From Comamonadaceae bacterium (GTDB lineage: Bacteria > Pseudomonadota > Gammaproteobacteria > Burkholderiales > Burkholderiaceae_C), in contig JAIYCB010000044.1 in assembly GCA_027488215.1 (NCBI GenBank), positions 62,001 to 126,000 of the forward strand: a stretch of DNA of 64,000 bases, read 5' to 3'. The translations under genes and the position numbers were made by a program. Of the stretch, positions 8,614 to 46,436 are shown piece by piece (positions within the stretch are counted from its first letter, which is position 1; the number at the start of each line of letters is the position of its first letter). The notes under the pieces were generated by a model. It ran no database searches. It saw only the letters and a program-made list of their open reading frames with translations, and was not told the origin of the DNA.

Positions 8614-8934
8614 TTATTTTTTGGGGGGTGGGTCAGGCAACAAACAAGCTTCGGCCACTTGCAAGCCATTGTCGCGCGCGAAGTTCATCACAAAATCCCA
8701 GGCCATGACGTTGTGCTCGCGCAGATCGTGGTTCACGATCACACACTTGACCCCGGCCAACGTGGTGGGAATGCACCAAGGAGAATAACTCAGATGGCTG
8801 CCCGGTGTGGCTCCACCGGGGCGAAAGGGGCTCATGACGCCCGCCAGGCGTTCGGCCCAGTCGCTGGGTCGGAAATCCTTGCCGTCCTGGGTGATGCCCT
8901 GGATGAAAACTTGTTTGACGTTGTTGGAAACCAT
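8614..8934 (-). CDS. DUF3579 domain protein
   Basis: 106 residues, with GITQDGKDFRPSDWAERLAG, MSPFRPGG, YSPWCIPTTLAGVKCVIVNHDL and WDFVMNFARDNGLQVAEACL, the conserved layout of DUF3579. The function is unknown; the family is widespread in betaproteobacteria, often near rpsT/argD as here. A strong terminator follows it. Upstream, a minus-strand TACAAT (8999-9004) abuts a palindrome identical to the putative GntR operator at 40342, so it may be one of that regulator's targets. Confidence 0.85.
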   Translation of the reverse strand: MVSNNVKQVFIQGITQDGKDFRPSDWAERLAGVMSPFRPGGATPGSHLSYSPWCIPTTLAGVKCVIVNHDLREHNVMAWDFVMNFARDNGLQVAEACLLPDPPPKK

Positions 8935-9004
8935 CGGATAGAGGTGTAAATCAGTCGGACCCGCAGCGCGGGATCGCCACCCACAGGTTTACACAAGTAT
9001 TGTA

Positions 9005-9016
9005 TCTTATATAAGA
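9005..9016. promoter_or_regulatory. Putative GntR-type operator TCTTATATAAGA between DUF3579 gene and argD
   Basis: A perfect 12-bp palindrome, identical to the one in the mdh/gntR intergenic region. It lies 70 bp upstream of the DUF3579 start and 128 bp upstream of argD. A minus-strand -10-like TACAAT directly abuts it. The assignment to GntR rests only on identity with the other site. Confidence 0.5.
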
Positions 9017-9144: not shown

Positions 9145-10347
9145 ATGTCCGCTTTCATTGAAGCCGCCTCACCGCACACCATGAACACCTATGGCCGACT
9201 GCCCATCGCACTCAGCCATGGTCAAGGTTGCCGAGTTTGGGACATCAATGGCAAATCCTACTTGGACGCGCTGGCGGGCATCGCCGTGAACACGCTGGGG
9301 CACAACCACCCCGATCTGGTACCTGCACTGCAGGATCAAGTCAGCAAGATGATCCACAGCTGCAACTATTTCCATGTGCCCAACGCCGAGGTTTTGGCGG
9401 CCAAACTGGTCGAGCTGTCAGGCATGACCAATGTGTTCTTCTGCTGCACCGGCTTGGAGGCCAATGAAGCGGCCATCAAGTTGGCGCGCAAATACGGTCA
9501 CGACAAGGGCATCGACAAACCCGAGATCGTGGTTTATGAGAAAGCTTTCCACGGCCGCAGCATCGCCACCCTGAGCGCCACCGCCAACGAGAAGCTTAAA
9601 AAAGGTTTCGGCCCCATGCTCGACGGCTTTTTGCGCGTGCCGGTCAACGACATCGAGGCCCTGAAAAAAGCCACCGAAGGCAACCCCAATGTGGTGGCTG
9701 TGTTCATGGAAACCATCCAGGGCGAAGGCGGCATCAACCCCATGCGCATCGAATACTTGAAACAAGTGCGCGCACTGTGCGACCAAAAAGACTGGCTGAT
9801 GATGATTGACGAGGTGCAGTGCGGCATGGGCCGCACGGGCAAGTGGTTTGCACACCAGTGGGCAGGCATCGTGCCCGACGTGATGCCGCTGGCCAAGGGT
9901 CTGGGCTCGGGCGTACCGATCGGCGCGGTGGTGGCAGGCCCCAAGGCCGCCCACATCTTCCAGCCCGGTAACCATGGCACCACCTTTGGTGGCAACCCAC
10001 TGGCCATGCGCGCCGGAGTCGAGACCATCCGCATCATGGAGAAAGACGGCCTGATGGCCAATGCGGCGCGGGTCGGCGACCATCTGCGTACTTGCCTTGA
10101 AAAAGCCCTGGCAGGGGTTGAAGGCGTCAAAGAAATCCGGGGCCAGGGCTTGATGTTGGGCGTTGAACTCGACCGCCCCTGCGGCCCCATTTGGAGCCGC
10201 GCGGCCCAAGCCGGACTGCTGCTGAGCGTGACCGCCGACAGCGTGATCCGTCTGGTGCCACCACTGATCATGACCGAGGCCGAAGCGGAGGAAGTGGTCG
10301 CCATACTGACGCCCTTGATCAAGACCTTTTTGGCAGAGTCGCCATGA
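9145..10347 (+). CDS. argD: Acetylornithine aminotransferase (class III, PLP)
   Basis: 400 residues from MSAFIEAASPHTMNTYGRLP, with CAGGAG 8 nt upstream; the track's start is 12 codons too early. It is a class III aminotransferase with DEVQCGMGRTGKWFAHQ and the PLP lysine in LAKGLGSGVPIGAVV. In arginine synthesis it transfers an amino group from glutamate to N-acetylglutamate semialdehyde. The family is close to succinylornithine and GABA aminotransferases; the ATGA overlap with argF supports ArgD. Confidence 0.9.
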   Translation: MSAFIEAASPHTMNTYGRLPIALSHGQGCRVWDINGKSYLDALAGIAVNTLGHNHPDLVPALQDQVSKMIHSCNYFHVPNAEVLAAKLVELSGMTNVFFCCTGLEANEAAIKLARKYGHDKGIDKPEIVVYEKAFHGRSIATLSATANEKLKKGFGPMLDGFLRVPVNDIEALKKATEGNPNVVAVFMETIQGEGGINPMRIEYLKQVRALCDQKDWLMMIDEVQCGMGRTGKWFAHQWAGIVPDVMPLAKGLGSGVPIGAVVAGPKAAHIFQPGNHGTTFGGNPLAMRAGVETIRIMEKDGLMANAARVGDHLRTCLEKALAGVEGVKEIRGQGLMLGVELDRPCGPIWSRAAQAGLLLSVTADSVIRLVPPLIMTEAEAEEVVAILTPLIKTFLAESP

Positions 10348-34796: not shown

Positions 34797-37388
34797 TTAC
34801 GCGGCCACACCCTTGGCGTTTTCCACATATTCTTCAATCTGGTTGAAGTTCATGTACTTGTAGATCGCCGCGCCGTCTTTGTTCACGATGCCCATGGCTT
34901 CATGGTATTCGGCGACTGTCGGGATGTGGCCCAGCTTGGACGCGATCGCCGCCAACTCGGCGCTGGCCAGGAACACGTTTGTGTTCTTGCCCAGGCGGTT
35001 GGGGAAGTTGCGTGTGCTGGTGGACACCACCGTGGCGCCTTCACGCACTTGGGCTTGGTTGCCCATGCACAGCGAGCAGCCAGGCATTTCGGTGCGGGCA
35101 CCGGCGGCGCCGAAGTTGGCGTAGTGGCCTTCCTTGATCAGCTCGCTCTCGTCCATCTTGGTCGGTGGGGCCACCCACAGCTTGACCGGGATGTCGCGGC
35201 TGCCGCCGAGCAGCTTGGCCGCGGCGCGGAAGTGACCGATGTTGGTCATGCACGAACCGATGAACGCTTCGTCGATCTTGGTGCCCGCCACGTCGGACAA
35301 GAACTTGGCGTCGTCCGGGTCGTTGGGGCAGCACAGGATCGGCTCTTTGATCTCGTTCATGTCGATTTCAATGACGTGGGCGTACTCAGCGTTCTTGTCG
35401 GCTTCGAGCAGTTCGGGCTTGGCCAACCAGGCTTCGACCTTCTCGATGCGGCGGGCCAAGGTGCGTGCGTCGGCATAACCGTCAGCGATCATGTTCTTCA
35501 TAAGCACCACGTTGGACTTCAGGTACTCCTCGATCGGCTCCTTGTTGAGCTTGATCGTGCAACCGGCAGCCGAACGCTCGGCAGACGCGTCGGACAACTC
35601 AAACGCTTGCTCGACCTTGAGGTTGGGCAGGCCTTCAATTTCCAGGATGCGGCCCGAGAACTCGTTGATCTTGCCGGCCTTGGCCACGGTGAGCAGGCCC
35701 TTCTTGATGGCATACAGCGGAATCGCATGCACCAAATCGCGCAGGGTCACGCCAGGCTGCATTTCGCCTTTAAAACGCACAACAATAGACTCGGGCATGT
35801 CCAAAGGCATCACACCCGTGGCCGCACCAAAGGCCACCAAACCCGAACCGGCGGGGAAGGAAATGCCGATGGGGAAACGGGTGTGCGAGTCGCCGCCAGT
35901 GCCCACTGTGTCGGGCAAAAGCAGGCGGTTGAGCCAGCTGTGGATCACACCGTCACCGGGACGCAGGGACACGCCGCCGCGGTTGCTCATGAACGCAGGC
36001 AATTCGCGGTGGGTCTTGACGTCCACGGCCTTGGGGTAAGCCGCGGTGTGGCAAAAGGACTGCATCACCATGTCGGCGCTGAAGCCCAGGCAAGCCAAGT
36101 CTTTCAACTCGTCGCGGGTCATCGGACCCGTGGTGTCTTGTGAACCCACGGTGGTCATCTTGGGTTCGCAGTAGGTGCCGGGGCGCACGCCTTGGCCTTC
36201 GGGCAAACCAACCGCACGGCCAACCATTTTCTGGGCCAAGGTGAAACCCGCCTTGGTGGCCGCTGCAGGTGCTGGCAGGCGGAAGACGGTGGAAGCGGGC
36301 AGACCCAGGAACTCGCGCGCCTTGGCAGTCAGCGAGCGGCCAATGATCAGGTTGATGCGGCCACCGGCGCGCACTTCGTCAAACAGCACATCGCTCTTGA
36401 GTTGGAAGGTGGTGACGGTTTGGCCGTCCTTCACGATCTTGCCTTCGTAGGGCAAGACATCGACCACGTCGCCCATGTTCAGGCCGCTGACATCGACTTC
36501 GATCGGCAAGGCGCCGGAGTCTTCTTGGGTGTTGAAGAAGATGGGGGCAATCTTGCCGCCCAAAGTCACGCCGCCAAAACGCTTGTTCGGCACGAAGGGG
36601 ATGTCTTCACCAAAGCCCCAGATGATGCTGTTGGTGGCCGACTTGCGGCTGGAGCCGGTGCCGACCACGTCGCCCACGTAAGACACCAAATGGCCTTTTT
36701 TCTTGAGCTCTTCGATCATGGCCATGGGGCCGCGCTTGCCGTCTTCTTCGGGCTTGAAGGGTGCGCCTTCGCGGGTGTTTTTGAGCATCGCGAGGTAGTG
36801 CAGCGGGATGTCGGGGCGGCTCCAGGCGTCGGGCGCGGGCGACAGGTCGTCGGTGTTGGTTTCACCTGGCACCTTGAAGACGGTGATGGTGATTTTTTTC
36901 TCGACTTCGGGGCGGCTGGTGAACCACTCGGCCTCGGCCCAGCTTTGCATGACTTCTTTGGCCTTGGCGTTGCCCGCCTTGGCTTTTTCGGCGACATCGT
37001 TGAAGAAGTCGAACATCAGCAGGGTTTTCTTCAGGCCTTCAGCGGCCACGCCAGCCACTTCTGCGCTGTCGAGCAATTCGATGAGCGGGTGCACGTTGTA
37101 GCCACCCACCATGGTGCCCAGCAGCTCGGTGGCCTTGGCTTTGGAGATCAAGCCTACGCTGATTTCGCCGTGCGCTACAGCGGCCAAGAAAGAGGCCTTG
37201 ACCTTGGCAGCATCGTCCACACCCGGTGGCACGCGGTGGGTCAGCAGGTCCATCAAGAAGGCGTCTTCGCCTGCAGGTGGGTTCTTGATCAGTTCGATCA
37301 GTTCGGCCACTTGTTTGGCATCAAGAGGCAGGGGCGGGATGCCCAATGCAGCGCGTTCGGCTGCGTGTTCACGGTACGCTTTCAACAT
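34797..37388 (-). CDS. acnB: Aconitate hydratase B
   Basis: 863 residues. The order is AcnB-type: helical HEAT-like domain first ([20 protein letters not shown]), then the swivel domain, then the Fe-S catalytic domains. Signatures include [60 protein letters not shown] with a cluster cysteine, and [12 protein letters not shown] with two more cluster cysteines. It interconverts citrate and isocitrate in the TCA cycle. Last gene of the minus block mdh, lyase, exported protein, acnB. The large antisense ORFs in the track are shadows. Confidence 0.96.
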
Positions 37389-37412: not shown

Positions 37413-38111
37413 TCAATCGTTGGATCTGCCCATGCCGGTTTTGTCAAACAGGCTGGGCGGCGGGTTGGTTTTCATGCCTTGGCCATAGGCCACTTGCTTG
37501 GGGTGCGCACATTCGTCGGCAACTCGAAGGCCCTTTTTCTGGTCCATCAACATGGACTTGTTGGCCAGTTGCAACCAAACGGCACCAGCTTTTTTATCTT
37601 CCAGACGCAGAGCGCCGGTACTGGTGCGCACGGGGTACATGCGGTAGCGAAAGCCTTTGCCCTGTACATGGAAATAGCCAGGCGCTGCCGTATCGGCTTC
37701 AACACGCACGCTGGCCCCCATCTCACAGGGCATGAGGCCTTGGTGAATTTGCTGGGCAATGGCCAAGTCTTGCGACATCGGATCTGACGCACTTTGGGTC
37801 ACAGGGGCCGCTTCAGCCAAACCAGAATCCACAGGTGCCAGGGTCGGCGCAGCGGCCGGGGAAGGAGGTGCAGACCCCACGCTGTGCATGGGCTGCACCT
37901 CGGTCCATGCAGGCAGCGGCTGCATGGGCGCAAGAGACTGGGCCTCGGCAATGGCGCGGGCTTGCAGGCGTGCCGTGAGATCGGCAGATGCACGGGCTTT
38001 GGCCTGCGCGGACGACTGAGAAAGCTGAGCCTTGGCACCTGTCTGCCCCTGGCTTTGCGCCCAGGCAGGCAGCAAAGTGGCAAAGACCAGAACAACAAGG
38101 CTATTGCGCAT
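37413..38111 (-). CDS. Uncharacterised exported protein between acnB and the CoA-ester lyase
   Basis: 232 residues from MRNSLVVLVFATLLPAWAQS, with AAGGGAAG upstream; the track start 30 nt earlier would give an ATGA overlap with the lyase stop and is the alternative. A signal peptide is followed by an Ala/Gln/Pro-rich low-complexity linker (to about residue 120) and a compact C-terminal domain with two cysteines (LMPCEMGASVRVEAD, DECAHPKQVAYGQG). Not recognised as a named family. The position suggests co-expression with TCA genes, but nothing indicates function. Confidence 0.75.
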   Translation of the reverse strand: MRNSLVVLVFATLLPAWAQSQGQTGAKAQLSQSSAQAKARASADLTARLQARAIAEAQSLAPMQPLPAWTEVQPMHSVGSAPPSPAAAPTLAPVDSGLAEAAPVTQSASDPMSQDLAIAQQIHQGLMPCEMGASVRVEADTAAPGYFHVQGKGFRYRMYPVRTSTGALRLEDKKAGAVWLQLANKSMLMDQKKGLRVADECAHPKQVAYGQGMKTNPPPSLFDKTGMGRSND

Positions 38112-38137
38112 GGACTTCCCTTTGAAGACTGCGGGCA

Positions 38138-39157
38138 TCATGACAGGCTGCGTTCCGGGCTCTTTGGAGCCACGTCAAAAAAAGCCAACATCGGAGCGGG
38201 CAAATGGCAGCCCGTCTGGTGGGCACGCTCGATCAGTTGCCAGAAAAAACGGTAACTGGCCCGGTCATGCAATTGACCTGCGTGGCTGATGGGCGCCCAG
38301 CTGGCCGCTTGGGCGGCCAAGATGATCTGGCTGGCTTGGTCAATTTGTGCCTCACTGGGCGCCATGGCCTCCAGGATGGGGCGAATCTGGTCAGGGTGGA
38401 TGCTCCACATGCGTGTGTAACCCAGCTCACGGGCCGCTTTTTGGGCCGCCATGCGCATCGCTTCGGTATTTTTAAATTCAGTGACTACGCAGTGTGACGG
38501 CACCTTGCCGTGTGCGTGACAGGCGCTGGCGATCTCGAGCTTGGCGCGTAGCACCAGTGGATGCGTAAATTGCCCTTGGATGCCCATGCCCTCAGCGGGT
38601 ATCGCGCCAGCATGGGCCGATACAAAATCCATCAGCCCAAAACTGATCGATTGCACGCGAGGGTGCGCCGCGATGTCAAAGGCCCGGTGCACGGCAGCGG
38701 GCGATTCGATCAACACATGCACCGGCAACTGGCCAGCTCCGGCGCTGATCAAAGCAGCTTGAGCGCGTTCCACATCGGCCACGCTCTCGACTTTGGGCAC
38801 CATGATGTGCGTCAAAGCTTGCCCTGCACGGCCCGCGATGTGGCTCATGTCGGCTTCAAAACTGGGGTGGTCCACCGGATGGACCCGCACCGCAATGCGC
38901 GCATCGGCGCGAGCGGCTTTTGTGGCCAATGCCAACTCGGTCACCAAGGCTGCGTGTTCGGCTTCGCCACCCACTGGCGCACCGTCTTCACAGTCCAGGG
39001 TGACATCGAAAACGCAAGTGCCGAACTCCTGCGTCATCTCGGCCTGCAGCTGCAGGCTCTTGCGCATCCGCGCCTCCACACCGCTGTAATGGTCACACAC
39101 CGGCAGCTGCACGCTCCCGGCTTGTGCCCCCAGCAAAATGTGGCGCGGATGACTCAC
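38138..39157 (-). CDS. HpcH/HpaI-family CoA-ester lyase (malyl-/citramalyl-CoA lyase-like)
   Basis: 339 residues with the CitE/malyl-CoA lyase fold: VFDVTLDCEDGAPVGG, the arginine in RIAVRVHPVDH, HIMVPKVESVADVERA, VHVLIESPAAVHRAFDI and SISFGLMDFVSAHAGA. The metal-binding glutamate and aspartate positions are present. It could cleave malyl-CoA or beta-methylmalyl-CoA or hydrolyse malyl-CoA; the exact activity is not determinable. It starts about 20 nt after mdh, so it is likely co-transcribed with malate dehydrogenase and aconitase. Confidence 0.85.
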   Translation of the reverse strand: MSHPRHILLGAQAGSVQLPVCDHYSGVEARMRKSLQLQAEMTQEFGTCVFDVTLDCEDGAPVGGEAEHAALVTELALATKAARADARIAVRVHPVDHPSFEADMSHIAGRAGQALTHIMVPKVESVADVERAQAALISAGAGQLPVHVLIESPAAVHRAFDIAAHPRVQSISFGLMDFVSAHAGAIPAEGMGIQGQFTHPLVLRAKLEIASACHAHGKVPSHCVVTEFKNTEAMRMAAQKAARELGYTRMWSIHPDQIRPILEAMAPSEAQIDQASQIILAAQAASWAPISHAGQLHDRASYRFFWQLIERAHQTGCHLPAPMLAFFDVAPKSPERSLS

Positions 39158-39177: not shown

Positions 39178-40164
39178 TCAGATCAGGTGAGCCACGCCCG
39201 CTTGTTCGTCGGTCAACTCTTTCAGAGTCTTGTCGATGCAGCCTTGGCTGAATGCATCGATGTCCAGACCTTCAACCACTTTGTACTGGCCGTTTTCGCA
39301 GGTGACGGGGAAACCGAACATGACGTCCTTGGGAATGCCGTACCAGCCTTGCGACGGGATACCCATGGTGACCCACTTGCCGTTGGTGCCCAGGGCCCAG
39401 TCGCGCATGTGGTCGATGGCGGCGTTGGCAGCCGACGCGGCAGAGGACAAACCACGGGCTTCGATGATGGCGGCGCCGCGCTTGCCCACGGTGGGCAAGA
39501 ACACGTTGGCGTTCCACTCTTGGTCGTTGATCATGGCCTTGACCGACTCGCCCTTGATGGTGGCAAAGCGGTAGTCAGCATACATGGTGGGCGAGTGGTT
39601 GCCCCAGACGCACAGCTTCTCAATGTCAGCTACGGCCTTGCCGGTCTTTGCAGCGATTTGCGACAAGGCGCGGTTGTGATCCAGGCGCAACATCGCGGTG
39701 AAGTTGCCAGGCTTCAGATCGGGTGCGGATTTCATGGCGATGTAGGCGTTGGTGTTGGCGGGGTTGCCCACGACCAGCACTTTGACATCACGCGAAGCGA
39801 CAGCGTTGAGGGCTTTGCCCTGTGCGGTGAAGATGGCTCCGTTGATGGCCAGCAGCTCAGCGCGCTCCATGCCGGGGCCGCGTGGACGTGAACCGACGAG
39901 CAAAGCGTAGTCGGTGTCCTTGAAAGCGGTCATGGGGTCAGAGTGGGCTTCCATGCCCACCAACAACGGGAACGCGCAGTCTTCGAGTTCCATCATCACA
40001 CCCTTGAGCGCTTTTTGCGGGCCTTCTACAGGCACTTCGAGCAATTGCAGGATAACGGGCTGGTCTTTGCCCAACATTTCGCCAGAGGCGATGCGAAACA
40101 ACAATGCATAACCGATTTGACCTGCTGCGCCGGTGACGGCAACGCGGACGGGCTTTTTGCTCAT
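39178..40164 (-). CDS. mdh: Malate dehydrogenase (NAD-dependent)
   Basis: 328 residues. The Rossmann motif is [20 protein letters not shown]; the substrate loop has [14 protein letters not shown]; the catalytic histidine is in [14 protein letters not shown]. This is the large-loop MDH of betaproteobacteria, similar to the cytoplasmic/chloroplast type. It oxidises malate to oxaloacetate. First gene of the minus TCA operon, divergent from gntR across a 238-bp gap with a palindromic operator. Confidence 0.96.
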
Positions 40165-40331
40165 GGTGGAAAACTCCGAAGTGTTGAAAACAAACGTTGC
40201 GGCCTGTCACCAACATTCATGTCAGCAAGGCCATCCGGGACACCGGACACACGCCCACGGTCTTTGTCCAAAAGCCGCAAGCGCAAGCAAACAGCTTTTG
40301 AGTTTACCCGCGAAAACCCTGATTCGTCAAT

Positions 40332-40359
40332 TTGTCTTATGTCTTATATAAGATATGAT
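40332..40359 (+). promoter_or_regulatory. Putative gntR promoter with TTGTCT / TATGAT spaced 16 bp
   Basis: TTGTCT (40332-40337) and TATGAT (40354-40359) fit a sigma-70 promoter 44 nt before gntR. The palindrome at 40342-40353 lies exactly between the two hexamers, a classic repressor position. Confidence 0.45.
40342..40353. promoter_or_regulatory. Putative GntR operator TCTTATATAAGA in the mdh/gntR gap
   Basis: A perfect 12-bp palindrome, with an extra half-site TCTTATG just upstream at 40335. It lies between the predicted -35 and -10 of gntR and 178 bp upstream of mdh. Likely autoregulation and control of mdh by the adjacent GntR protein; inference. Confidence 0.6.
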
Positions 40360-40402
40360 GACACTTCTGACATGCTCCTGAACTGCATGCCCGGCACGCC
40401 CC

Positions 40403-41191
40403 ATGAACCACACCTTACCCCAGACCGAAGCACCAGCTGCTGCCGCTGCAGACTCCCCAGCCACTGCCCCCGCTTTTAGCCCTCTGTATCAACAAATCAA
40501 AGGGCTCATCTTGCAAAGCCTGCAGGCCAGCGAGTGGAAACCAGGCGAGTCCATTCCCAGCGAAATGGAATTGGCCTCACGCTACCGGGTCAGTCAAGGA
40601 ACAGTGCGCAAAGCCATCGACGAGTTGGCCAGCGGGCACCTGCTGATCCGCAAGCAAGGCAAGGGCACATTTGTCGCGACCCATGCCGAGCACCAGGTCC
40701 AATACCGTTTTTTGAAGCTGGTACCCGATCAAGGCGACCTGAACACCGAAGGTCCCGCCCAGCGCGAAATCGTCGACTGCAAGCGGTTACGTGCTTCTGC
40801 CGAGATCGCCCGAGCATTGGCTTTGCGTTCTGGCGACACCGTGGTGCAAGTTCGAAGAGTTCTTTCGTTTGCAAATATCCCAACCATTCTTGAAGACCTC
40901 TGGTTGCCCGGCACTGCTTTCAAAGGTTTGTCGGCCGAACGCCTGGCCGATTACCACGGCCCCATGTACGCCCTGTTTGAAACTGAGTTTGGTGTGCGCA
41001 TGGTGCGTGCCGAAGAAAAGATTCGGGCCGTGTTACCCGACAAGGCCCAAAGGGAATTGCTGAAATTGCCCCCCAGCACGCCTTTGCTCAGTGTGGAGCG
41101 CGTTGCCTACACTTACAACGACACCCCGATGGAGTTGAGGCGCGGCTTTTATCGCACCGATACCCATCACTACCGCAACGATTTGAACTGA
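40403..41191 (+). CDS. GntR/HutC-family transcriptional regulator with UTRA domain
   Basis: 262 residues. An Ala/Pro-rich N-terminal tail is followed by a winged helix (LYQQIKGLILQSLQASEWKP, SRYRVSQGTVRKAIDELASG, KQGKGTFVA) and a UTRA effector domain from about residue 100 (LLSVERVAYTYNDTPMELRR). Effectors in this family are small metabolites. It sits between mdh-acnB and sdhCDABE-gltA with matching palindromes before both, so it probably governs TCA genes; the effector may be a TCA intermediate. Confidence 0.88.
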   Translation: MNHTLPQTEAPAAAAADSPATAPAFSPLYQQIKGLILQSLQASEWKPGESIPSEMELASRYRVSQGTVRKAIDELASGHLLIRKQGKGTFVATHAEHQVQYRFLKLVPDQGDLNTEGPAQREIVDCKRLRASAEIARALALRSGDTVVQVRRVLSFANIPTILEDLWLPGTAFKGLSAERLADYHGPMYALFETEFGVRMVRAEEKIRAVLPDKAQRELLKLPPSTPLLSVERVAYTYNDTPMELRRGFYRTDTHHYRNDLN

Positions 41192-41210
41192 CCTGAGACC
41201 CCCTCCTACG

Positions 41211-41222
41211 TCTTGTAGAAGA
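41211..41222. promoter_or_regulatory. Putative GntR operator TCTTGTAGAAGA upstream of sdhC
   Basis: It matches 10 of 12 positions of the 40342 palindrome. GTCTT/AAGAC arms are perfectly symmetric over 14 bp (41210-41223). It lies 98 nt before the sdhC ATG and upstream of a possible TAGAAT -10. Inferred operator. Confidence 0.5.
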
Positions 41223-41319
41223 CTGTCGCTGAAATGCTCACGTCAGTTTGTTGCGTTGCAATAGAATTCACCAGCTTGTTATTTACAACACGAACGCGTT
41301 TCACCCAGAAAGTACCTAC

Positions 41320-41751
41320 ATGACCGAACTCGTCCGCAAGCGGCCTGAATTCCGCAACATCAACGCCCTGAAAGACTTGCCTTCGTACCGCCTGCCGGCT
41401 GCTGGCATTGTCTCCATCCTGCACCGCATCAGCGGTTTCCTGATGTTCTTGCTCATGCCCCTGTTCATCTGGATTTTTGACAACTCCATCACTTCCGAAG
41501 TGTCGTTTGCCAAGCTTTCAGCGGCATTCGGTATCGGCATCGGCTTTGTGCCCGGCTGGTTTTTCAAGCTCTTGGTCCTTTCGCTCATCTGGGCCTACCT
41601 GCACCACTTCATCGCCGGCATGCGCCACATCTACATGGATGCCTTCCATGCTGTGACCAAAGAATTCGGTAAATCCTCTGCAGTGGCCACTTTGGTGCTG
41701 AGCTTGGGCTTGACCGCCGTACTGGCAGCCAAGCTGTTTGGTTTGTACTGA
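41320..41751 (+). CDS. sdhC: Succinate dehydrogenase cytochrome b556 subunit
   Basis: 143 residues from MTELVRKRPEFRNINALKDL; the track start is 24 codons early. Three membrane helices. SIVSILHRISGFLMF-type quinone-site segment (VSILHRISGFLMFLLM) and HHFIAGMRHIYMDAF, with the heme b histidine, are family signatures. Membrane anchor of complex II. First gene of sdhCDAB-sdhE-gltA. Confidence 0.95.
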   Translation: MTELVRKRPEFRNINALKDLPSYRLPAAGIVSILHRISGFLMFLLMPLFIWIFDNSITSEVSFAKLSAAFGIGIGFVPGWFFKLLVLSLIWAYLHHFIAGMRHIYMDAFHAVTKEFGKSSAVATLVLSLGLTAVLAAKLFGLY

Positions 41752-41791
41752 TTTCTCTGCCCCTCACTCAAAACAACAAGGAAACTGACCT

Positions 41792-42160
41792 ATGTCGTCC
41801 GTGAATTACGGCTCCAAACGCATCGTGACCGGTGCAGGCTACGGCTTTCGTGACTGGCTGGCCCAACGTGTGACCGCCGTCTTGATGGCCTTGTTCACCG
41901 TGGTCTTGCTGGCCCAAGTGATCTTCACTTCCGGCGCTATTGGCTACGAAGAATGGGCTGGCATTTTTGCGCCTCAATGGATGAAGGTTCTGACCTTCTC
42001 CGTCATCATCGCCCTCCTGTACCACGTCTGGGTCGGCATGCGTGACATCTGGATGGACTATGTCAAGCCACTGGCACTTCGCCTTGCTTTGCACGTCTTC
42101 ACCCTCGTCTGGCTGGTCGGCTGTGCAGGCTGGGCTGTTCAGGCCCTGTGGCGCCTGTAA
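41792..42160 (+). CDS. sdhD: Succinate dehydrogenase membrane anchor subunit
   Basis: 122 residues, three membrane helices. It has the heme/quinone segment YHVWVGMRDIWMDYVKPLAL, including the conserved His, Asp and Tyr. It forms the membrane part of complex II with SdhC. Starts 40 nt after sdhC. Confidence 0.93.
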   Translation: MSSVNYGSKRIVTGAGYGFRDWLAQRVTAVLMALFTVVLLAQVIFTSGAIGYEEWAGIFAPQWMKVLTFSVIIALLYHVWVGMRDIWMDYVKPLALRLALHVFTLVWLVGCAGWAVQALWRL

Positions 42161-42213
42161 CGCGGCAGCCCTCGCCTGTCATTGCGCTGAAACCACACCA
42201 ACCAAGATAAACC

Positions 42214-44019
42214 ATGAGCTATACCAAAGACAAAATCACCACCCGCAAGTTTGACGTCGTGATCGTCGGCGCCGGTGGTTCGGGCATGCGTGCCTCGCTA
42301 CAACTGGCCCGTGCTGGCCTCAATGTGGCTGTACTTTCAAAAGTGTTCCCCACCCGTTCGCACACTGTGGCAGCCCAAGGTGGCATCGGTGCCTCTCTGG
42401 GCAACATGTCCGACGACAACTGGCATTACCACTTTTACGACACCATCAAGGGCTCCGACTGGCTCGGTGACCAGGATGCGATCGAATTCATGTGCCGCGA
42501 AGCGCCTAAAGTCGTGTACGACCTCGAACATATGGGCATGCCATTTGACCGCAACCCCGACGGCACGATTTACCAGCGCCCCTTTGGTGGTCACACCGCC
42601 AACTACGGCGAAAAGCCTGTGCAACGCGCTTGCGCTGCGGCTGACCGCACCGGCCACGCCATGCTGCACACCCTGTACCAGCAAAACGTGGCGGCCAAAA
42701 CCAGCTTCTTTGTGGAGTGGATGGCCCTTGACCTGATCCGCGACGCCGAAGGCGACGTGGTCGGCGTGACCGCCCTTGAGATGGAAACCGGCGACCTGCA
42801 CGTCTTGCATGCCAAGACCGTGCTGATGGCCACTGGTGGCGCAGGCCGCATTTATGCTGCCTCCACTAACGCCTTCATCAACACCGGTGACGGCTTGGGC
42901 ATGGCCGCTCGTGCGGGTATTCCTTTGGAAGACATGGAGTTCTGGCAATTCCACCCTACCGGCGTGGCCGGTGCTGGTGTGCTCTTGACCGAAGGATGCC
43001 GTGGTGAAGGCGCGATCTTGCTCAACAGCAATGGCGAGCGCTTCATGGAGCGTTATGCGCCCACCCTGAAAGACTTGGCACCACGCGACTTCGTTTCCCG
43101 CTGCATGGACCAGGAAATCAAGGAAGGCCGTGGCTGTGGCCCCAACAAGGATTACGTGTTGCTCAAGCTGGACCACCTGGGGTCTGACACCATCCACAAG
43201 CGCCTGCCCTCGGTCTACGAAATCGGCGTCAACTTCGCCAACGTCGACATCACCAAAGAGCCGATCCCGGTGGTGCCCACCATCCACTACCAAATGGGTG
43301 GCATCCCCACCAACATCAACGGCCAAGTGGTCACGCAAACCGCAACCGACCACAACGCCGTGGTCAATGGTCTTTACGCTGTAGGCGAATGCTCTTGCGT
43401 GTCGGTGCACGGCGCCAACCGCTTGGGCACCAACTCGCTGCTCGACTTGTTGGTGTTCGGCCGTGCGGCTGGCAACCACATCGTCGACTTCGCATCCAAG
43501 ACCAAGTCGCACAAGCCTTTGCCCGCCGACGCTGCCGATTACACATTGGGTCGCCTGAACAAGCTCGAAGGCCGTGGCGGTGAATACGCACAAGACGTGG
43601 CCAACGACATGCGTGCCGCCATGCAGCAACACGCAGGCGTGTTCCGCACCCAGGCTTCCATGGACGAAGGCGTGCAAAAGATCGCCGCCATCCGCGAGCG
43701 TGTCAATGCGATCGGCCTGAAGGACACTTCCAAAGTGTTCAACACCGCCCGCATCGAAGCCCTGGAAGTGGACAACCTGATCGAAGCCGCGCAGTCCACC
43801 ATGGTGTCTGCCGCTGCCCGCCGCGAGTGCCGTGGTGCCCACACTGTGAGCGACTACGAGCGTCCAGTGGATGATGCCGCAGCCCCATTGGGCCGCGACG
43901 ATGCCAACTGGATGAAGCACACCCTATGGCACAGCGCCGACAACAGCTTGACCTACAAGCCTGTGAAGCTCAAGCCCCTCACCGTGGATTCCGTGCCACC
44001 CAAGGTTCGTACTTTCTAA
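42214..44019 (+). CDS. sdhA: Succinate dehydrogenase flavoprotein subunit
   Basis: 601 residues. The FAD-binding motif is VIVGAGGSGMRASLQLARAG, the covalent FAD histidine is in TRSHTVAAQGGIGASLG, and the substrate segment is HGANRLGTNSLLDLLVFGRA. It oxidises succinate to fumarate. Full length. The 527-codon antisense ORF in the track is a codon-bias shadow. Confidence 0.97.
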   Translation: MSYTKDKITTRKFDVVIVGAGGSGMRASLQLARAGLNVAVLSKVFPTRSHTVAAQGGIGASLGNMSDDNWHYHFYDTIKGSDWLGDQDAIEFMCREAPKVVYDLEHMGMPFDRNPDGTIYQRPFGGHTANYGEKPVQRACAAADRTGHAMLHTLYQQNVAAKTSFFVEWMALDLIRDAEGDVVGVTALEMETGDLHVLHAKTVLMATGGAGRIYAASTNAFINTGDGLGMAARAGIPLEDMEFWQFHPTGVAGAGVLLTEGCRGEGAILLNSNGERFMERYAPTLKDLAPRDFVSRCMDQEIKEGRGCGPNKDYVLLKLDHLGSDTIHKRLPSVYEIGVNFANVDITKEPIPVVPTIHYQMGGIPTNINGQVVTQTATDHNAVVNGLYAVGECSCVSVHGANRLGTNSLLDLLVFGRAAGNHIVDFASKTKSHKPLPADAADYTLGRLNKLEGRGGEYAQDVANDMRAAMQQHAGVFRTQASMDEGVQKIAAIRERVNAIGLKDTSKVFNTARIEALEVDNLIEAAQSTMVSAAARRECRGAHTVSDYERPVDDAAAPLGRDDANWMKHTLWHSADNSLTYKPVKLKPLTVDSVPPKVRTF

Positions 44020-44082
44020 AGATTGTCTGGGCCGCGCACCAACAGTAGCGGTCCAATACCCGAATACACCAGGAGTTCTTTC

Positions 44083-44787
44083 ATGACCCTACGCACTTTT
44101 CAGATCTACCGCTACGACCCTGACAAGGACGCCAAGCCCTACATGCAAACCATCCAGGTTGAATTGGACGGCAACGAACGCATGTTGCTCGACGCCCTGA
44201 TGAAACTCAAGGCCGTGGACCCCAGCATTTCGTTCCGCCGCTCCTGCCGCGAAGGCGTGTGCGGTTCGGACGCGATGAACATCAACGGCAAAAACGGTTT
44301 GGCTTGTCTCACCAACATGAACACCTTGCCCGGCACCATCGTGCTCAAGCCCCTCCCCGGCTTGCCCGTCATCCGCGACGTGATCGTGGACATGACCCAG
44401 TTCTTCAAACAGTACCACTCGATCAAGCCCTACCTGATCAACAGCACCATCCCGCCCGAGACCGAGCGCCTGCAAAGCCCGGAAGAGCGTGACGAGCTGA
44501 ACGGTTTGTACGAATGCATCTTGTGCGCCAGCTGCTCGACCAGCTGCCCCAGCTTCTGGTGGAACCCCGACAAGTTTGTGGGCCCTGCCGGTTTGCTGCA
44601 GGCCTACCGCTTCATCGCCGACAGCCGTGACGAAGCCACCTCAGAGCGCTTGGACAACCTGGAAGACCCTTACCGTCTGTTCCGCTGCCACACCATCATG
44701 AACTGCGTCGATGTTTGCCCCAAAGGTCTGAACCCCACCAAGGCGATCGGCAAGATCAAAGAAATGATGTTGCGTCGCGCTGCCTGA
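44083..44787 (+). CDS. sdhB: Succinate dehydrogenase iron-sulfur subunit
   Basis: 234 residues from MTLRTFQIYRYDPDKDAKPY, with AGGAG upstream; the track start is 20 codons early. The 2Fe-2S motif is SCREGVCGSDAMNINGKNGL with a following C; the 4Fe-4S is CILCASCSTSCPSFWW; the 3Fe-4S is CHTIMNCVDVCPKGLNP. It carries electrons from SdhA to quinone. TGATG overlap with sdhE. Confidence 0.97.
   Translation: MTLRTFQIYRYDPDKDAKPYMQTIQVELDGNERMLLDALMKLKAVDPSISFRRSCREGVCGSDAMNINGKNGLACLTNMNTLPGTIVLKPLPGLPVIRDVIVDMTQFFKQYHSIKPYLINSTIPPETERLQSPEERDELNGLYECILCASCSTSCPSFWWNPDKFVGPAGLLQAYRFIADSRDEATSERLDNLEDPYRLFRCHTIMNCVDVCPKGLNPTKAIGKIKEMMLRRAA

Positions 44788-45137: not shown

Positions 45138-46436
<1,299 letters not shown>

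Follow-up and report, generated by a model that had tools for sequence, protein, structure and literature searches.

The window, by which we mean the whole 64,000-nucleotide stretch of DNA analysed here, comes from a Limnohabitans genome and carries TCA-cycle genes on both sides of a gene for a GntR-type regulator (Table 1). The palindrome TCTTATATAAGA lies within the gntR promoter and closely precedes the divergent mdh promoter, in which TTGAC and TA(A/C)ACT are kept in most genera. It is flanked by the gntR hexamers TTGTCT (40332-40337) and TATGAT (40354-40359) with a spacer of 16, and these coordinates confirm the arrangement described in an earlier sequence-only reading of this DNA. Around the core there is a larger four-heptad symmetry, GTCTTAT-GTCTTAT-ATAAGAT-(ATGATGA), which the sequence-only reading does not mention. 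A full site consists of two GTCTTAT and two ATAAGAC heptads; at gntR/mdh of this genome the gntR -10 region stands in place of the fourth. The 10/12 copy with GTCTT/AAGAC arms that the same reading had placed before sdhC was likewise found (TCTTGTAGAAGA, 41211-41222).

Table 1. Genes and predicted regulatory features in the window
Feature	Position	Strand	Basis or remark
DUF3579 protein, conserved predicted target	8614..8934	-	PF12112
Second exact operator (predicted)	9005..9016	.	Abuts DUF3579 -10 (TACAAT, 8999-9004, - strand); 128 bp from argD
argD, acetylornithine aminotransferase family, possible target	9145..10347	+	TIGR00707
acnB, aconitase B	34797..37388	-	Pfam; own exact operator in some other genera
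Protein between lyase and acnB (exported, according to the sequence-only reading)	37413..38141	-	No Pfam match
CoA-ester lyase-like protein, HpcH/HpaI family, downstream of mdh	38138..39157	-	Pfam; 20 bp gap
mdh, malate dehydrogenase	39178..40164	-	Profile searches
mdh promoter TTGACG-18-TAAACT	40301..40330	-	Promoter match; operator centre at about -53
gntR promoter TTGTCT-16-TATGAT, operator inside spacer	40332..40359	+	Promoter scan; layout conserved
Heptad half-sites GTCTTAT GTCTTAT ATAAGAT, three of four	40334..40354	+	Sequence; matches published SdhR consensus
Core palindromic operator TCTTATATAAGA, SdhR-type, predicted	40342..40353	.	Sequence; genome count; exact or one mismatch in 79/79 close relatives
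gntR, GntR HTH + UTRA regulator, SdhR orthologue	40403..41191	+	PF00392, PF07702; family- and order-wide orthologues
Degenerate operator-like site GTCTTGTAGAAGAC, lineage-limited	41211..41222	.	Centre at about -57 from likely sdhC start
sdhC promoter element TTGTTGCGTTGCAATAGAAT	41248..41267	+	Conserved where operator is not
sdhC, sdhD, sdhA, sdhB	41320..44787	+	sdhC by Pfam; sdhD/A/B by position and conserved order of tblastn matches
gltA, citrate synthase	45138..46436	+	Pfam

The whole 3.07 Mb genome contains three exact copies of TCTTATATAAGA, compared with about 0.002 expected under a Markov model trained on the 64-kb window. Of the two other copies, both absent from the sequence-only reading, one separates DUF3579 from argD; the other precedes aceA (isocitrate lyase), where a one-mismatch copy lies exactly 30 bp from the exact one. 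With up to two mismatches allowed, the reversed-motif control gives 18 matches versus 6 for the true motif. The count alone thus lends no significance to the two-mismatch sdhC copy, which therefore needs other support.

The sequence-only reading had proposed searching for the motif genome-wide and in related genomes, and its association with gntR/mdh was upheld both in close relatives and in many families of the order. The best gntR matches come from Limnohabitans records (91-92% identical). Our close-relative set comprised 80 related loci, and in all 79 that have sequence upstream of gntR the palindrome is present there with at most one mismatch (exact in 70). In a family set of 121 genomes representing 120 genera, exact copies occur in 111 genomes and total 214, versus 5 for the reversed motif. 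GntR was found in 118 of these genomes; the three lacking it are all among the ten without an exact site (Fisher p = 0.0004). The remaining seven of those ten do encode GntR: three of them carry a one-mismatch copy next to gntR, and four have not even a one-mismatch site at that position.

The motif recurs at a small number of promoters. In 31 genera we located 67 exact copies, of which 65 fall at mdh/gntR (27), aceA (22), DUF3579/argD (11) or acnB (5). The 22 aceA sites are distributed over 18 loci, four of which have exact pairs, and the DUF3579/argD operator is found in the same place in 11 other loci. At one aceA locus (L005:3612-3653) the two operators stand 30 bp apart, a distance seen again in several genera, with a conserved AAGTNNTTGATT block upstream. 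The DUF3579 protein of the window, whose -10 box abuts the palindrome, has a relative of known structure (PDB 2l9d). In a genome from another family (G267), copies precede genes for trans-aconitate methyltransferase and a second isocitrate lyase type, as well as aceA, acnB and DUF3579; trans-aconitate 2-methyltransferase (L214:1198-2012) is a modifier of an aconitase inhibitor. In genome G135 an exact site separates gntR from the methylcitrate genes prpB-prpC. Outside the four target regions, exact sites precede a MocR-type gene (L154) and a ketopantoate-reductase-like gene with a class III CoA-transferase gene behind it (L120). The AT-rich genome G159 has three near-identical ATAATGAAGATATCTTATATAAGAC copies (L209, L210), which matched none of the reference genes used and are probably an unrelated repeat.

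The product of gntR combines a GntR-type HTH domain (PF00392, 67 bits) with a UTRA domain (PF07702, 109 bits). Its distant orthologues in other families, at 32-36% identity, retain the order mdh-operator-gntR-sdhCDAB. In these proteins identity falls to about 31% in the ligand domain, whereas the segment VSQGTVR, which from family knowledge of GntR HTH domains we take to be the recognition helix, is essentially unchanged (S for Q in one protein). Paralogues at a similar distance (33-40% identity) mostly have VSIGTLR instead. Since both the site and VSQGTVR are kept at 32-36% identity, while equally distant paralogues carry VSIGTLR, the link between GntR and the palindrome is strongly supported. 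This covariation is the best available computational evidence that GntR would read the palindrome, which very probably represents the DNA docking site of the neighbouring regulator and would connect citric-acid and glyoxylate cycle genes in a wide range of bacteria. It also singles out the residues that track the operator. The central claim of the sequence-only reading, that the adjacent GntR has its operator in the palindrome and is thereby linked to TCA-cycle genes, thus gains support from co-conservation, from recurrence at aceA, acnB and DUF3579/argD, and from the fit to SdhR.

The position of the palindrome relative to promoters suggests how it may work. At gntR, DUF3579, acnB and the downstream aceA site it lies directly before the -10 box, mostly within 0-2 bases, as would be expected for a polymerase-blocking repressor. 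At mdh its centre precedes the likely start by about 53 bases, and an extra half-site lies next to the -35 hexamer. From the observed sites, their positions, their co-conservation and the covariation of the recognition helix we infer a model for binding, its sign, the ligand and the transcripts affected. A dimer, or two cooperating dimers on a four-heptad site, would bind the gntR -35/-10 spacer, leading to autorepression, likely by steric occlusion. At DUF3579 and aceA, and at acnB in other genera, the bound regulator would lie against the -10 box. The repressor would be released when its UTRA domain binds a metabolite, probably a TCA- or methylcitrate-cycle compound of the di- or tricarboxylate type. 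Because the mdh operator is positioned just upstream of -35, both signs are possible there: repression via the outer half-site or activation. The genes behind mdh, up to acnB, would follow mdh.

The connection to sdh is of a different kind. The gntR gene ends at 41191 and sdhC starts at 41320, and the same gene order is found in other genera and families. A terminator scan of this interval on the plus strand revealed no terminator-like structure; this makes read-through from the autoregulated gntR promoter the simplest tie to sdh. The 41211 site was itself considered as a typical terminator and rejected, as no T-run follows it and the scan detected none. Among the 80 close relatives the site is retained in 11 and missing in 69, and sites with at most one mismatch precede sdhC in only 2 of 48 more distant loci. 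Thus, the motif stands ahead of gntR/mdh orthologues, but mostly not ahead of those of sdhC, and the putative sdhC operator is the least conserved part of the system. Within the Limnohabitans clade, however, GTCTTGTAGAAGAC (as a 14-mer) is 99% conserved in 12 sequences compared with 70% for the adjoining flank, and therefore looks constrained. The sdhC promoter element TTGYTGCRTTGCAATAGAAT (TTGCTGC..TGCAA) is widely kept and is common to two phasin genes and sucC in this genome; in the form TTGTTGCGTTGCAATAGAAT it resembles a PhaR-type (polyhydroxybutyrate regulator) box. Accordingly, of the claim that the palindrome governs most local TCA-cycle genes, the part concerning gntR and mdh with its downstream genes stands, while that concerning sdhCDAB-gltA is weak. 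Control of the latter is weakly supported and would hold only if the gntR transcript reaches sdhC or the weak local site works. Of the two, read-through from the gntR promoter is the more plausible link. In the model, sdh-gltA would be tied mainly by the shared read direction of gntR and sdhC, with a weak additional site before sdhC in this Limnohabitans clade only.

Could the palindromes have arisen by chance, or simply be promoter-like AT-rich sequence, with TATATAAGA resembling -10 elements? They do overlap promoters, but the rarity of the motif genome-wide, the comparison with its reversed form and the short list of targets contradict this idea; we rejected a chance origin on the counts given above and regard this explanation as a whole as exceedingly improbable. 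It also seems unlikely that the palindrome is bound by a different regulator, with gntR and mdh among its targets by coincidence. Such a regulator would account for the GntR-positive genomes that lack an exact site, but not for the absence of the site where GntR is absent, nor for recognition-helix residues that follow the site even when overall divergence is the same, nor for a mdh-operator-gntR-sdh unit that stays intact across families.

A more serious contender, to which we give slightly less than even chances, is a narrower target set, limited to the promoters of gntR/mdh, aceA and DUF3579/argD. In this view the 41211 site would be an RNA hairpin or a remnant with no regulatory role, and sdh would have its own control via the conserved element TTGCTGCGTTGCAATAGAAT. 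On one hand, the sdhC site is confined to a subclade, and TTGCTGC..TGCAA, the element common to phasin genes and sucC, is kept before sdhC where the site is missing. On the other hand, the contrast between the 14-mer and its flank in the 12-member clade argues against a mere remnant, as do two distant genera in which sdhC is preceded by an exact or one-mismatch site. This alternative is a restricted version of our preferred explanation and is compatible with it. Taken together, the sequence evidence makes it highly probable that the GntR/UTRA protein encoded next to the palindrome, an SdhR orthologue, uses it as its operator, with the repression mechanism and the sdh-gltA tie proposed above. 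Far more tentatively, and with the likelihood rather against it, a single metabolite-responsive repressor might, in most of the order, set how the TCA cycle and the glyoxylate shunt are balanced, together with the methylcitrate cycle in some families, with DUF3579 as a dedicated component. The predictions provide a testable map of central carbon control in an abundant freshwater genus and its order, and predict shared control of isocitrate lyase and DUF3579, a protein family without assigned function.

Among known regulators, HutC, the histidine utilisation repressor, shares the GntR HTH and UTRA domains with the gntR product. The latter, however, scores 115.3 bits against the HutC equivalog TIGR02018, below its 220-bit cut-off. 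The operator differs too: sites of the HutC subfamily mostly have 4 nt between GT and AC (PMC4494728). Of known structures, PDB 3cnv, a ligand-domain chain of a 'putative GntR-family transcriptional regulator', matches residues 99-262 over its full 162-residue chain (E 3e-55) and is probably the ligand domain of an orthologue. It covers this domain only, and the search output gives neither ligand nor function for it; even so, a related ligand-domain structure makes an effector search practical.

The closest counterpart is SdhR, a member of the HutC subfamily of the GntR family, predicted by Suvorova, Ravcheev and Gelfand (J Bacteriol 2012, as cited in PMC4494728). Within the papers open to searching, we found no experimental work, with binding or expression data, on an SdhR-type regulator or operator. 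The SdhR consensus TCTTATGTCTTATATAAGACATAAGA is a palindrome with additional symmetry (Suvorova et al., PLoS One 2015, PMC4494728); compared by eye with 40335-40360, it agrees at 22 of 26 positions, with an exact core. The subfamily architecture, the operator with outer symmetry and the gene beside sdh are all as in SdhR. The expected order of a GntR-type HTH followed by a UTRA domain is present in the gntR product, and the regulator gene is adjacent to sdhCDAB, a trait we assume from the name SdhR. For an operator directly before sdhC, the candidate is the clade-limited two-mismatch site. Relative to the SdhR consensus, the -10 box at gntR/mdh of this Limnohabitans takes the place of the outermost heptad towards gntR. 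In another family, prpB and prpC are divergent to the orthologue, a further link to SdhR. Judged by these features, the system is that of the already predicted regulator SdhR, and this locus is a member. To that prediction our analysis adds the Limnohabitans target set, the covariation of the recognition helix, the -10-abutting geometry and the poor conservation of the putative sdhC operator.
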